A DNA stretch of 64,000 bases from assembly GCA_013176395.1 (NCBI GenBank), contig JABMLP010000014.1, forward strand, positions 434,001 through 498,000. The letters run 5' to 3'. The stretch is from Venturia oleaginea (lineage: Eukaryota > Ascomycota > Dothideomycetes > Venturiales > Venturiaceae). The translations under genes and the position numbers were made by a program. The notes under the pieces were generated by a model. The model saw only the letters and a program-made list of their open reading frames with translations, was not told the DNA's origin and searched no databases. Shown in pieces: positions 879-48,489 of this stretch (position 1 is the first letter of the stretch; the number at the start of each line of letters is the position of its first letter).

Positions 879-3800
879 CTACGCGTTCTCGATCCCACCA
901 TGCCCAAGGATCCGCGTACGTTCCATAGATCTGATGGCTTTAGTGGCTAACTTTTGCGCAGTCAGGATAGTCCTGAGGTTGTTTCGTCCTGAAAAGCAGC
1001 CCAGTTCCTCTCTTCGGATGTCCCGGAGCTTGCGGCATTCCAAAAGGATGTGGGCCACGGTCTGCGTCCCCTCACGGCAGTCACACTTGGAATCTAAGAT
1101 ACCTGGGACACGTCGGCTGAAGAGAAAAGCCTTGAGCCCAATCTTTTCAGTTCTCATCTGTACGAGGATCGCACTTTCTCGCTTGCTCCGGTCTTGATGG
1201 AGCTGGAGCACCCTCTTAGTAGGCTTGGGTGTATATCTCCTCGTGGCTTTTCCCTTTGTCTCGGCCCTCCAACTGGTCAGCCATAGTCTGTTTGCCATCT
1301 TCCAGCACCATGTCTTAAGTGTCGTTCTTAGTGGGTACAGCTCGAATGGTCTGTCAGCTCTCGGTCCTCCCTCTCCCTCTTCTCTCCATCCGGTAGTCTC
1401 CTTCGCGGCTTTGTCGGCGGCCTCGTTCCCGTCAATCCCCTCATGGGCGGGGATCCATGGTACATTCACGATTGTTCCGTAGTCGTGGATCTGTGTGATG
1501 CGTTCAACAATTTGCTTGACTATGTATGCCCCTGATCGACCCTCTGGCCTGGTCAGCGAGCATATCGCTGCCTGGTTGTCAGTGAAGATGTTGATGTTTC
1601 CCGCCCCGATGTCTGCTTGGACCATATCCAGCGCTAGATTTATTCCTTGCAGTTCTGCTACGTATACCGTAGAGGTCGTTCCAGGGCCCATGTACGTGCT
1701 TCTTTTCTGTCGTTTTAACGGCCAGACTACTGCAGCACCGGTATGGCCACCTATACTGCTCCCGTCTGTGTATATACAGGTATTGCTCTCGATCCTGGCG
1801 ACTGAATCGTGTTCAGAGCATCCTGCGTCATCACTTGGTGCGATGTTTATCTTTGGGCCTTGCCACCATGGTGCTGCTACGAACGGTGGGATTAACTCTC
1901 GCCTGTCGAGATTTACTGCTCCCTTCTCCTTGGTATCTCGGTATATATTGTATAATGGGCTATTGTAGCTTGTTCGTTGCCTTGACCTTGGTTCTCCGAG
2001 CTGAGTGTCTAACATTTTGGGGAGATCTTGGTATGAGAGTATACGGCTGAGGGTTTCGGTATTGTGTTTCCATATCTGTTGCTCGACTGGGAGCAGGTAG
2101 GTCTCGATATCGAGGGCAACCCTGGAGGTTGCTCTGAATGCTCCGCAGATAGTTCGTGCTGCGCCTGCTTGAATTGACCGAAGTGTATCGAGCGTTTTGC
2201 TCGTGTATGGCTTTCCTCTTGCCCCTGAATTCGACCATATTGAGCACGCGTACATCATCTGAGGGACCACTACTGCGCGGTAGATTTTTCGCATATCTAG
2301 CAGACTGACGCCCCATGTTGAGCTGCCTAGATAGCACAGTGCGTTCACTGTTTTCGTGGTTTTCCGCTTGATCTCTTCGATATATTCCTTCCACTGGAAC
2401 TTGCTGTCTAGCGTCACGCCTAGATATTTGCATGTTGTCCTAGGCTTACTGCTGCCCCAGGCCGTCTGAATGGGTTGTTTTGTGTTCATGCGTGTGCGTG
2501 TTCTTGTAAAGTGTGTCAATTGGAACTCTCCGGGGCGAATTTCGATGCATGTGTCTTTGCCCAACAGTCTGCCTTTTCTAGCGCATTTTCGAGTTTCTTA
2601 CCCGTTTCCTCTGTTGTGTTCCCCCATGCAAGTATGGCTGCGTCGTCGATGTAGCCTATAGCTGCCGTTTTATCACCTGAGTCGCATTGTTCGATAAGGT
2701 CGGAGTCATAGAATATGTATAAGATAGGGGATAGGGGCGATCTCTGTGGTACCCCAGTCTTCTCCGCATACTCGTCAGATTTAAAGCCATCAATTACGAT
2801 TAGTGTGTATCTATCGCTTAGGAAGCTAGCGATCCACCGTACCATCTTTTTATCAACTTTCCTCTTCCGTAGATTGTGCAGGAGTCTCTTGTGGGACACG
2901 TTGTCAAAGGCGCCGGAGACTTCAAGGAGCAGCAGGCTGGCTACTTGTCCTTTTCCGTTGTTCCACACGTTGTAAATTCTCTCGATTACCGCATGTAATG
3001 CGTGTTCCGTTGATCTCAATTTTCTGCCTCCTATGTGCATCTGTGGGATGACTTGGTGTGTTTCTACCAGGTAGCTAAGTCTTCTGGCTATAACTGCATC
3101 CATAGCCTTGCCAATGGCGTTCAGAAGCGCAATTGGTCGGTATGCCTTTGGAATCGAGTAGTCTTCTTTCCCTGGTTTGCGTAACACCACCGTGGTTGAG
3201 CTTCGGAAATGAGTCGGGCAGTAGCCTAGTTGTAGGCTCTGGTTCATAATTGTCGTTAGGTGCCCTACCAACATGTGAGATGCTACCTGCAGGGCTCAGT
3301 TTGGGATACCATCCGGTCCTGCGGCCTTCGAGGGTGATGCTGCTTGTATTGCATCCAACACCTCCTTCTCAGTAATGTCTGGCATTTATATTTGACCATC
3401 GTATCTGGCGTTCTGTAGGTCAATGAGGTCTGCTTCCGGAGGTGCTGGGAAGAAGGCGTCCCGGAAGAGACTCCATTTTGCTGTGGGTGTGATGGCTTGA
3501 TTGCCGGTTACCGGACACTTTATGGTTGGCGTTACGCTTGGAGGCTGGCTTTCTCTATTGCACGCCCATTTACGTATTTTCCAGAGAGACTCAGCCGAGC
3601 CTGCTGCCATTTCTACGCGGTCTCTATGTGCTTGCCGGAGCGATTTCTTGATAATCGGTGTCTTATGGTTCCTTGCCTTGCGGTAGGCTTCCCAAGCTTC
3701 TTCGGTGTGCCTTCTCCCGTGTATGCGCCTCAGGCGCTTTGTCTCTGCCAACGCTTTTGTACATGTTTCGTCCTATCCCTCTTTTGCCTTGGCGCATGGT

Positions 3801-4717
3801 CTTGCAAGAGGAAACACCCTTGCTGCTGCCTCGCTGATTGCTTTGGCTAAATCCATCGTATATGTGTCCAGCGCTGTTTTTGTCCTTGGTCTTCTTCGTG
3901 CCGGTAGGATGTTTTTTAGTGCCTGGCAGAACTTATCGCTGTCTAGGTATTTCCAGTTGCATCTTGGCTCGATTTTCGTGGAGCGCATCCGGATATCCAG
4001 TATGGTACTGATAGGGAGGTGGTCTGAATCATGATCTAGCTCTCTATCTGTTCTGCAACTGATAATCCTATCGACCAAGTCTAGTGTCATCCAGCACATG
4101 TCAATCGTTGTTCTGCTGCTGCCTTCCTCGTATATTAGCACGCCGGGCTATAGCATACTAGACATATCAAATCTTTCCATAGTTTCAATGAGGTCTTCAG
4201 CTTCTCGATCTTCATGTATGACTCCTGTTCCACCCCACATTCTGTGATGCAAGTGAAAGTCACCTAATGCGATCTGTTCTTTTGGCGCATGTTACTCCAA
4301 TTGAGCTCTCAGGGTTGGCAGGGAGCTCATGCGGTTTGGCGTGTTTTGGACTGCGTTGTAGATGTTGTGTATCACCAGCCCGTCTTCCGTTTGGCCGCTA
4401 TTGCTGATATTGATTCTCAACGAGCAGACGTCTCTTGTGTACTGCTCGAATTGCCAACCGCCGTGTTCTAGCCTTTTGTTGACAAAGAAACATACCCTTG
4501 CTGGGCCGTCCTCCTCGTTCATTGTTGGATAGCATAAATGCAACACGGTCTTTGCTGGGTGGTGCGTTGTCGACATGAAGGGGTTGCGCCACGGTTCTTG
4601 AATGGCAATGATGTCGTACTCTGATACTCTTGGATCACGGAGCAGAGTGGCCATAACCGTGTCTCTTGATTTACGCACGTTGTACTGTAGTATACTGAGT
4701 TGGTCCTTCTCTTTCAT
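879..4717 (-). pseudogene. LINE ORF2: endonuclease, reverse transcriptase, RNase H (inactive)
   Basis: A polyprotein that nicks target DNA and copies element RNA. The endonuclease domain starts at 4717 (LSILQYNVRKS, IAIQEPW, later DSDHLPI). The RT carries KAYRPIALLN, SGAFDNVSH, GVPQRSPLSP and the YIDD box near 2645-2660. RNase H shows IYTDGSSIGG, AELQGINLAL, FTDNQAA and GNEAADKAAKE, and a C-terminal CCHC-like motif follows (CDC...HILLEC). One frame holds from 4717 to about 2540 but has in-frame stops at 4289-4291, 4148-4150, 3773-3775, 3386-3388 and 3296-3298. A frameshift near 2530-2560 moves the rest into the 2564-879 frame. The first RT catalytic Asp is replaced (LLLEVSGAFD). Several stops fit CAA/CAG or TGG mutated by C-to-T or G-to-A. 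Confidence 0.88.
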
Positions 4718-4927
4718 AGGTCCGAGTCCTCATCGATTTCCATATATTGTGTATTTCTGCGTGGTACAGTATTACCCTCTAGCGCCTCAAGCGCCCTCCT
4801 GGACATCTTTATTGCTCTATGCGGCCTTTAACTCTGGCGCGGTCCTTCGTTCTCCTTGTCTTCTGGGGCAGGCCTCTTGTCCTTTTCCACGTGGTGATTG
4901 CATCCTGATCATCCCTGACCCTGAGCG

Positions 4928-5915
4928 TCAGGTCAAGTCTCTAGCTAACCTTGTTCTCCTAAGGGGTTTTCGGGCAGAATCGTTTGTAGGTGCTTCATTG
5001 CGAGTGTCTATTGTGGGATGATATCGTACCCTATCAGCGTATGCTACCTTTGTCCGGTCGAGTTCCTCCTTCCTGGTCAGGCATTGTTGACTCCATGCCT
5101 CATGGGCTTCCTGGCAATTGGCGCATTTCCTAGATGTGGTTTGTCCAGTCTTCGAAGGGCAGTCCCTAGAAATATGTTCTTGCGCCCAGTAGCCACATGT
5201 TTTTGCTGCCTTGCATTGAGTTCCTATGTGGCCGTATTTGTAGCACTGAAAGCACTGCTTCAGTCGGCATTGCCTCTCGTATCGTTCGCTTTGACACATC
5301 TCCCCTTGCCACACCAGACCTTCATCGATGATCTTGTTTGCGTCTTCAGATTTAGTAAACTCGATGATGACCGACGACATCGCTTTGGCTGGCGCCTTCC
5401 GGATCAGCCATCCTTTATATTTAATGTCTGCGGTCGGAATGAACGGCTTGTTATCTTGCAGAATAGCGTCTCTGGTTTCCTCAAATTTGTTTGTGTCCAT
5501 CGTGCTGGTACGTATGCCATGTACCAGGACGCCGTACGTTGGGTTCATTGCGCGAAGACTCTGAATCGTTCGTGCGTTTCTGATGTTCACGATAATCTCA
5601 CGTTGGACTATCGCAGGATTCTTGGCACTTTCGATTTGTGTGCTATATGTACTCGCAGCTAGCCCTCCTCGGGCAGCAGCGGCAGCATAGCTCATCGGCA
5701 TGCCTGTTTGGTGTTGTGGTCCTTTATTCTTGATGTCTCTCGTTATTCCTGTGACGATCCTGCCCACCTCCGTTGCCTCTTTTGCTGCCGCTTTTGCTTC
5801 TTCGCCAACCGTGATGCTCTTCTATGTGTCTGTTCCTAGAGCCTTAAAACCCCCCTTTATCTCTGCTATCTCTTTCGCCGCTCCTTTTGTGTCCTCAGTC
5901 ATCTCAGTGTGCATA
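4928..5915 (-). pseudogene. LINE ORF1 (gag-like, CCHC zinc knuckles), one stop
   Basis: The ORF1 protein of the LINE, expected to bind element RNA. The readable frame starts with an ATG near 5915 and meets one in-frame TAG at 5822-5824, after GFKALGTDT. From there it stays open to 4928. A lysine/glutamate-rich coiled-coil-like N-terminus is followed by an RRM-like middle. Cysteine-rich knuckles lie near the C-terminus, with the patterns CFQCYKYGHIGTQC, CGYWAQEHISRDC and CANCQEAHEAWSQQC; the second lacks the usual second Cys. The TAG could derive from CAG by one C-to-T change. ORF1 ends about 210 bp before ORF2 begins. Without the stop it would be roughly 330 residues. Confidence 0.75.
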
Positions 5916-26995: not shown

Positions 26996-27118
26996 AACCC
27001 TACGCGGGACTCGAACTATGCCGTATGTCAGTTGAGGGATACATCCGATATCTAGACACTACATACCCCGCAGCCTCGAGATTAGAAGTCTCGCGCGCTA
27101 CCATTGCGCCAGCAGGGC
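26996..27118 (-). tRNA. tRNA-Arg(UCU) interrupted in the T arm by a 51-nt intron-like insert
   Basis: Read on the minus strand, every tRNA part is present. The acceptor GCCCTGC pairs with GTAGGGT (two G-U pairs). The D arm is GCGC/GCGC with loop AATGGTA. The anticodon arm is CGAGA/TCTCG with loop CTTCTAA, giving anticodon TCT, and the variable loop is AGGCT. The T stem is GCGGG/CCCGC with loop TTCGAGT. A TTTT run follows at 26994-26997. There is no intron at the usual 37/38 site. Instead, 27016-27066 separates GCGGG from the T loop. Removing it restores a perfect T arm and a 72-nt tRNA. The insert begins GTATGT, has AACTGAC near its end and finishes CATAG, like a spliceosomal intron. The gene may therefore be a disrupted pseudogene or use an unusual splicing route. 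Confidence 0.8.
27016..27066 (-). other. Spliceosomal-intron-like insert within tRNA-Arg
   Basis: 51 nt on the minus strand: 5' GTATGT, branch-like CTGAC, 3' CATAG, with about 12 nt from branch A to AG. These match the protein-gene introns of this window in length and motifs. It sits between the 5' strand of the T stem and the T loop, so it also splits the B-box promoter, although the residual sequence AGTTCGAGTCC stays close to the B-box consensus. Confidence 0.7.
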
Positions 27119-47457: not shown

Positions 47458-48489
47458 TCATCCTGTGCGTCGGCGTGCCAAGTCCCGGACGCGGTGGGAG
47501 TACTTGCGCTTCAATGGCGAGAAGCAGACCACGGCAAGAGGCTGGAGTATATGCGACGAGTGCGGTGGCATACAGAGGGTTAGGATCTTATTTTCGAGGC
47601 AGTAGTCCTTGAAATCCTGGTTGAGATGGCTCTCATGGCCGTCCAAACGGAGTAGCCTATTACCCCCTACCTGCCACGCCTTTGTATACGCGTCAAAATG
47701 CTTCAACCACTTAAGACCAAGCGCGTTGTTTGTCCAGCCGTTCTCAGAGACTGAGAGCTTCCAATTCCGTGGTATACCTGCCTCCTCCTACCACGCAGAG
47801 ATGTGAACGCGTCCTTTATAGATAATAAATGGCGGGGTCGCATACCCAGCTGCGCAGATGCTCTGAATAACCGTAACCCATTCGCGATTGCCCGGCTGGA
47901 TGAGTTCAGGCCTTGTACGTCTTTCAGAGGCTGTAACGACCTTCATTGACCCAACAATAACGCCCATCTGGAAGCCAATCTCGTCAAAGTTGTGCGTATC
48001 CTCGTCGTGGACGCCGTACTTGGCTTTAGTATCTGCAACTAGCTTGAACCACGCGCCAATTACTCCTGGATCCTCCTGTAGTATCCTCTGCCTATCCTTT
48101 GCTCGATTGAAGGCTATTTTGAGCTCATCTGAGCGCGTTACGAATCTCTCAGCCCAGTTTTTGCCTACTGGCTCTCCACCGCATATACTCAGTAGTTTAT
48201 CCGCCATACCTGCCACCTCACACAGCCGGGGTGCGAATCCTCGCGAATCGAGATCGAGGATATATCGAATAACCGTTTGCTCTTCTATCGTAGTGAGCTT
48301 ATGAGAGTTTGGGCGAGTTTGAGATGAAGAGGTGATTCCGCGGAGCCGATCAGAGAGCCTTTGGTGTTGAACGTTAAAGGCTGTAGCAGCGCGCCGTAGA
48401 CTTTGAAATTGGCCAGAGGTACAAGCCTGAAGAGCAAGATCAATTCTACCTTCTTCTTGAACGGCTATCGCGTTGCGTTGTTGAGACAT
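47458..48489 (-). pseudogene. Pogo/Fot1-like DNA transposase, inactive
   Basis: A DDE transposase of the Tc1/mariner superfamily, pogo/Fot1 type. One frame runs from 48489 with an in-frame stop at 47788-47790, then continues to 47458. Domains in order are a psq-like HTH (IDLALQACTSGQFQSLRRAA), a CENP-B-like HTH (MADKLLSICGGEPVGKNWAE) and the DDE region. The first Asp is in NFDEIGFQMGV and the second in LLRLDGHESH. The third position, normally Asp in HSSHILQPLDV, reads HSSHILQPLAV, so the triad is broken. The protein stops early (HRVRDLARRRTG) and lacks the usual C-terminal part. I could not find convincing terminal inverted repeats. It cannot transpose on its own. Confidence 0.8.

Follow-up and report, generated by a model that had tools for sequence, protein, structure and literature searches.

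A tRNA-Arg(UCU) gene whose T arm is split by a putative spliceosomal intron, and at least 12 further tRNA genes with similar inserts in a fungal genome

The window, i.e., the whole 64-kb stretch of DNA analysed here (C6:434001-498000, in a genome of 46.08 Mb in 61 contigs), holds what is most likely a functional nuclear tRNA-Arg(UCU) gene whose T arm is split by a U2-type spliceosomal intron, such introns interrupting at least 13 tRNA genes of this genome, and we put the probability of this reading at roughly 0.87. The mRNA splicing machinery would probably have to finish the tRNAs interrupted in this way. The gene lies on the minus strand at 26996-27118, where the Rfam tRNA model RF00005 aligns from end to end with 44.6 bits (gathering score 29, E = 3.1e-6) and places the insert in the T arm. 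It is the only match in the window reaching the gathering score. ARAGORN called no tRNA in the unspliced 64-kb window, 26996-27118 included, because 51 nt part T-stem base 53 from T-loop base 54. Removal of 27066-27016 leaves a 72-nt tRNA-Arg(UCU) in which the acceptor, D, anticodon and T stems are all present, and ARAGORN calls it as tRNA-Arg(tct). The parts are as follows, the A and B boxes being assigned by motif.

26996..27118, minus strand: interrupted tRNA-Arg(UCU) gene (RF00005, model positions 1-71 of 71)
27067..27118, minus strand: 5' exon, 52 nt, tRNA positions 1-53 (acceptor 5' strand, D arm, anticodon arm, variable loop, 5' T stem)
27101..27111, minus strand: A box TGGCGCAATGG, intact
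27016..27066, minus strand: intron, 51 nt, GTATGT...CATAG, at tRNA position 53/54
27061..27066, minus strand: 5' splice site GTATGT, common to the paralogue L099 despite differing intron interiors
27027..27031, minus strand: branch-site-like CTGAC, A at 27028, then 12 nt to the intron end
27016..27018, minus strand: 3' splice site TAG
26996..27015, minus strand: 3' exon, 20 nt, tRNA positions 54-73 (T loop, 3' T stem, acceptor 3' strand, base 73)
27007..27017, minus strand: B box nearly re-created over the border of intron and 3' exon, AGTTCGAGTCC

These observations bear out the sequence-only reading, which had proposed a tRNA-Arg(UCU) gene with all its arms, a 51-nt insert marked by GTATGT, CTGAC and CATAG, a complete 72-nt tRNA with its T arm upon exact excision, and a B box that is split by the insert and nearly re-created. 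Each element was found at the place claimed for it. The insert has GT...AG ends, a GTRNGT-like 5' splice site and a CTRAY motif close to its 3' end, as U2-type introns have, and its position at 53/54 is not the 37/38 of introns cut by the tRNA endonuclease. The spliceosomal interpretation given by that reading is supported by these splice signals, by the paralogue and by the class of at least 13 genes. It had also named membership in a larger repeat as something that would refute an intron; the window insert, the one of the 14 inserts searched in this way, was compared with the genome together with short flanks and matched nothing besides itself, and a repeat or introner family was rejected for it. 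A covariance model of the T-arm class, in whose training the window gene was included, gave this gene 91.3 bits and found two weak matches (14.7 and 10.8 bits) in the window.

Similar inserts are present in 12 further tRNA genes, and the sequence-only reading therefore understated the case. In total, at least 13 tRNA genes in the 46-Mb genome carry 14 inserts, all of them GT...AG and 51-89 nt long. This census is a lower bound, as the best 63 of 1697 Rfam candidates were scored and the assembly may be incomplete; the A-box patterns used excluded TAGT and TGGT forms. Eleven of the genes came from searches in which no splice motif was required, namely those with the Rfam tRNA model (58 matches, 40 places inspected) and for A and B boxes spaced 72-102 nt apart.

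tRNA-Arg(UCU), searches free of splice motifs: the window gene and L099 (C20:147032-147153)
tRNA-Ser(AGA), searches free of splice motifs: L010, L012 and the weakened L070
tRNA-Ser(GCU), searches free of splice motifs: L011
tRNA-Gly(CCC), searches free of splice motifs: L013
tRNA-Arg(CCG), searches free of splice motifs: L098
tRNA-Trp, searches free of splice motifs: L094, L096 and L102
tRNA-Ser(GCU) L062 (B-box match at C15:899953-899977, minus strand) and tRNA-Leu(UAG) L067: added by a pattern requiring CTAAY and AG before a B box

The sites, counted by hand on the cloverleaf, are not all in the T arm. The T-arm inserts lie at 52/53 in Ser, Gly and Leu and at 53/54 in Arg, the Trp inserts lie in the variable loop (46/47 or 47/48), and that of Arg(CCG) L098 lies in the D loop between the two conserved G. 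Two GT...AG introns occur in Ser(GCU) L062, one in the T arm and one, the first, in the anticodon stem at 29/30. As read from the spliced genes, the interrupted Trp, Leu and Gly genes hold an ordinary anticodon-loop intron as well. In its no-intron mode ARAGORN called none of the 13 genes unspliced and all 13 spliced; when anticodon introns of up to 120 nt were allowed, six unspliced genes (L010, L013, L094, L098, L099 and L102) were called with the intron misplaced. Genes were named by ARAGORN on the spliced sequence, except that L094 (Gly(TCC) spliced, Trp unspliced) and L096 (Gly or Trp, depending on the mode) were both named Trp by their likeness to L102.

The CTAAY-and-AG pattern gave 26 matches (43 in its reversed control), of which seven are interrupted tRNA genes (L059=L013, L061=L012, L062, L064=L011, L066=L010, L067 and L070); the remainder comprise a tRNA-Gln gene (L056) whose intron is of the ordinary kind, one match on C38 (L071) that by eye resembles a mitochondrial tRNA, and 17 that look unrelated. 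With the A-to-B-box pattern, 10 of the 17 matches were interrupted tRNA genes and the reversed control had two matches. That pattern demanded a G before TTC, which at 53/54 is the last base of the insert itself, and this introduces a mild bias to AG in both Arg(UCU) genes. A further pattern search had seven matches, four in interrupted tRNA genes and three that look unrelated. In yet another, one of the two matches was a tRNA-Lys(CUU) gene (L113, C24:68954-69053) with an unusually long anticodon-loop intron of about 46 nt; having no GT...AG, it was left uncounted.

The placed branch-site motif is more frequent in the class than in any of the shuffled sets. In 12 of the 14 inserts there is a CTRAY motif whose A stands 8-20 nt before the end, and in two it is missing from that place; 2000 dinucleotide shuffles with the ends fixed averaged 1.26 such inserts and never exceeded 6. 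Because L062 and L067 came from a pattern requiring CTAAY, the 11 inserts of the genes found without splice motifs were counted separately: all 11 are GT...AG and 10 have the placed CTRAY, the one without it being L096 (shuffle mean 1.1, maximum 4 in 2000). The 16 ordinary anticodon-loop introns placed by ARAGORN (loci L014-L048), a control set in which some isotype calls look doubtful, are 6-29 nt long and none is GT...AG, sliding included. In a sliding test of GT...AG on 10 of the interrupted genes, the chance was 0.02-0.29 for each, and this is an overstatement since the shuffled inserts keep their first and last base. A chance insert was ruled out by the number of genes, the signals and the comparison of the paralogues.

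The second tRNA-Arg(UCU) gene, L099, is interrupted at the same site as the window gene. Their exons are identical at 71 of 72 positions and the intron interiors have diverged, with GTATGT and TAG kept; the flanks look unrelated except for about a dozen similar bases just downstream. The only exon difference is at position 33, which is nearly always U in tRNAs; the window gene has this U, whereas L099 has an A. Because of this A33, the window gene may be the sole fully standard source of tRNA-Arg(UCU). Another close pair is formed by the interrupted Ser gene L010 and the intronless L029, whose exons are identical throughout (81/81), a pattern suggestive of either a recent intron gain or a precise loss; other interrupted and intronless pairs are identical at 78 of 81 (L012-L039), 77 (L062-L030) and 73 (L011-L030) positions. 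Intronless genes exist for both Ser(AGA) and Ser(GCU), so the introns of these two need not be spliced. Judging from the A33 of L099 and the weakened, mismatched stems of the Ser-like L070, some of the interrupted genes may be decaying.

Uninterrupted nuclear genes for Arg(UCU) or Trp were not found in the searches of this genome, and decay is therefore unlikely in these two families. BLAST of the spliced Arg(UCU) exon against the genome hit two places, the window gene and its paralogue, and thus no intact nuclear copy of the kind that the sequence-only reading had proposed to look for. This BLAST missed the Arg(CCU) genes L041 and L045 and therefore detects near copies only; the absence of diverged intact copies rests on two pattern searches. 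An A box plus CTTCTAAT had no match in the genome beyond the window gene. The pattern CTTCTAA with a nearby B box had eight matches, among which neither inspection by eye nor ARAGORN revealed an intact nuclear tRNA; two, on contig C38, which is dense in mitochondrial-looking tRNAs, look like mitochondrial Arg(UCU) and one of them is called by ARAGORN, and the search therefore works. For Trp, BLAST against the genome hit three places, which are the three interrupted genes L094, L096 and L102; it returned their 5' halves alone and is therefore informative about how many genes there are but not about the junction. As read by eye, none of 60 pattern matches contained the joined CTGAAGG expected of a Trp variable loop that is not interrupted. 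A dispersed repeat, GATTCCATACTGCCTCAATTGGGTTCAAATC, present on many contigs and not a tRNA by eye, made up 24 of these 60 matches, five of them with one base changed. Both codons are in use: in five ORFs of the window, four with Pfam matches, AGA occurs 20 times and TGG 19 times among 1995 codons. Since the copies found are all interrupted while these codons are used, tRNA-Arg(UCU) and tRNA-Trp seem to be obtainable solely through splicing. An intact copy may have been missed, the census being a lower bound from a possibly incomplete assembly.

The putative internal promoter elements are kept by the inserts or at least nearly rebuilt. The 52/53 T-arm introns end in AG and are followed by GTTCRA, the border reading AGGTTCRANNC, which restores the B box motif where it would have been; the window gene has AGTTCGAGTCC as its substitute. 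In L098, the D-loop intron starts with GT and leaves TGGCCTAATGG readable. The first run of five T 3' of the tRNA was at 6, 9, 10, 10, 11, 14, 23, 24, 26, 28, 32 and 79 nt in 12 genes, i.e., within 14 nt in six and within 32 nt in 11 of the 13, and L070 had none within 130 nt but four T at 32. The value of 79 nt belongs to the window gene, in which the nearest run of four T overlaps the last two bases; by its sequence, its terminator appears poor and is the weakest feature of the gene.

Introns of the same kind were also seen in U6 genes. The Rfam U6 model had seven matches, of which L081, 63 nt long, was set aside. The others, L075-L080, are on C23, C16, C34, C12, C12 and C36, respectively. 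By eye, L079 and L080 contain clear internal GT...AG introns; L075, L076, L078 and L080 have an apparent intron in the 5' part, with CTAAY and AG before GTCAATTTG or TCAATTTG; and L077 has an insert in the 5' part whose 5' end could not be placed. L080 thus apparently has two introns, and no clearly uninterrupted copy was seen among the six genes. The spliceosome may then have to splice its own U6 here, and the U6 introns fit a spliceosome already acting on Pol III transcripts in this organism. Within the window, the SUV3 gene has a probable 47-nt mRNA intron (GTGAGT...CTAAC...CAG) of the same build as the tRNA insert. Arc1p-like, Sec1 and epimerase matches were also found in the window; with SUV3, the U6 genes and the mitochondrial-looking contig C38 they point to a filamentous fungus. 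In addition, remains of a non-LTR retrotransposon lie at 879-5767 on the minus strand, with a reverse transcriptase domain beside ORFs that look RNase H- and zinc-knuckle-like by eye, and an ORF at 47788-48489, also minus, has a Psq-type helix-turn-helix, presumably as in pogo-like transposases.

Three other explanations were weighed. The interrupted genes could be pseudogenes with insertions in the T arm, for in a review, inserts in the D or T arm of eukaryotic tRNA genes are said to occur mostly in one of many synonymous genes and are hence supposed to mark pseudogenes, nucleomorphs and a red alga being the exceptions (PMC4090602). The mismatched stems of L070, the A33 of L099 and the intronless Ser copies would agree with this. 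However, the searches returned no intact synonymous copy for Arg(UCU) or Trp, the Arg exons have stayed identical at 71 of 72 positions while the insert diverged, and all 14 inserts are GT...AG and a suitably placed branch site is present in 12 of them, and we regard decay of the class as improbable. The same 14 and 12 inserts weigh against the second, very unlikely reading, in which the inserts are noncanonical tRNA introns that the tRNA-splicing endonuclease removes at bulge-helix-bulge (BHB) motifs, like those of archaea and the red alga Cyanidioschyzon, since such introns need neither GT nor branch site nor AG. Archaeal introns do occur at 53/54 and 45/46 among other sites, as the same review states (PMC4090602), and ordinary anticodon-loop introns are present in this genome. 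The predicted fold of the window precursor, the one precursor inspected, was not more stable than its shuffles (z = -0.36) and no BHB was seen by eye at its junctions.

An equally slight chance is left to the third, in which Pol II transcribes the loci as parts of longer RNAs, and their splicing yields no mature tRNA. Spliceosomes normally act on Pol II RNA, and the window gene has no close run of five T. Nevertheless, the A and B boxes persist or are almost restored, runs of five T follow most of the genes at the distances given above, and AGA and UGG codons would be left with no tRNA that was found. Moreover, U6, elsewhere a Pol III transcript, holds such introns in this genome.

For the preferred reading, that of functional tRNA genes with spliceosomal introns, we infer a course of transcription and splicing as follows. 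The Arg(UCU) gene would be transcribed by Pol III from its A box and the B box nearly re-created at the 3' edge of the intron, and the spliceosome would take out the 51 nt as a lariat. Formation of the T arm and processing of the tRNA would have to await this removal. We further consider it likely that, with all Arg(UCU) and Trp genes found to be interrupted, the translation of AGA and UGG depends on the spliceosome, that the introns have spread through Pol III genes (tRNA and U6) at sites where the A and B boxes are kept or re-created, and that some pre-tRNAs, with an endonuclease intron besides, need both splicing systems. As to the arrival of the introns, they may have been gained several times independently, possibly through reverse splicing, and then multiplied as the Arg, Ser and Trp genes were duplicated; the isoacceptors differ, one site before GTTCRA was reused and the intron interiors are unlike, which would agree with this. 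For fungal rDNA, intron spread by reverse splicing has been put forward (PMC11889510).

The splicing of tRNA and that of mRNA are treated as separate systems, and spliceosomal tRNA introns, if confirmed, would tie translation directly to the spliceosome and would mean that it can act on Pol III pre-tRNAs. The identical pair L010 and L029 would then provide a clean case for the study of intron gain or loss, and standard annotation may miss such tRNAs in other fungi. According to the paper on tRNAscan-SE 2.0, a eukaryotic tRNA gene can have no more than one intron (PMC8450103), and by a statement in PMC4090602 most eukaryotic tRNA introns are at the canonical site. No earlier report of spliceosomal introns in tRNA genes was recognised in the open-access literature searched, preprints and most subscription journals being outside its scope; priority is not established.

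Ordinary 37/38 tRNA introns are present in the same genome, even within the interrupted Trp, Leu and Gly genes, and the inserts described here differ from them in position, length and signals. rRNA is a Pol I transcript, whereas the hosts here are short genes with Pol III-type internal promoters. The inserts share with the spliceosomal introns of ascomycete nuclear rRNA genes, described in a part of PMC11889510 (citing Cubero 2000 and Bhattacharya 2000), the occurrence of an mRNA-type intron in a structured RNA. In Crenarchaeota, Cyanidioschyzon merolae and nucleomorphs, tRNA introns are located, like those here, in the T arm, D arm, variable region and anticodon stem, and some genes hold more than one, according to PMC4090602 and PMC3978253; unlike the present inserts with their spliceosomal signals, those introns are recognised by BHB motifs and cut by the endonuclease or, in nucleomorphs, removed by a mechanism that is unknown. 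A further likeness is to the short spliceosomal introns of fungal U6 snRNA and U3 snoRNA genes; frequent interruption is known for no other small structured RNAs, according to PMC5832005. As in those noncoding genes, the host here encodes a small structured RNA, but it is a tRNA gene with an internal promoter, many paralogues and a different splicing system of its own.
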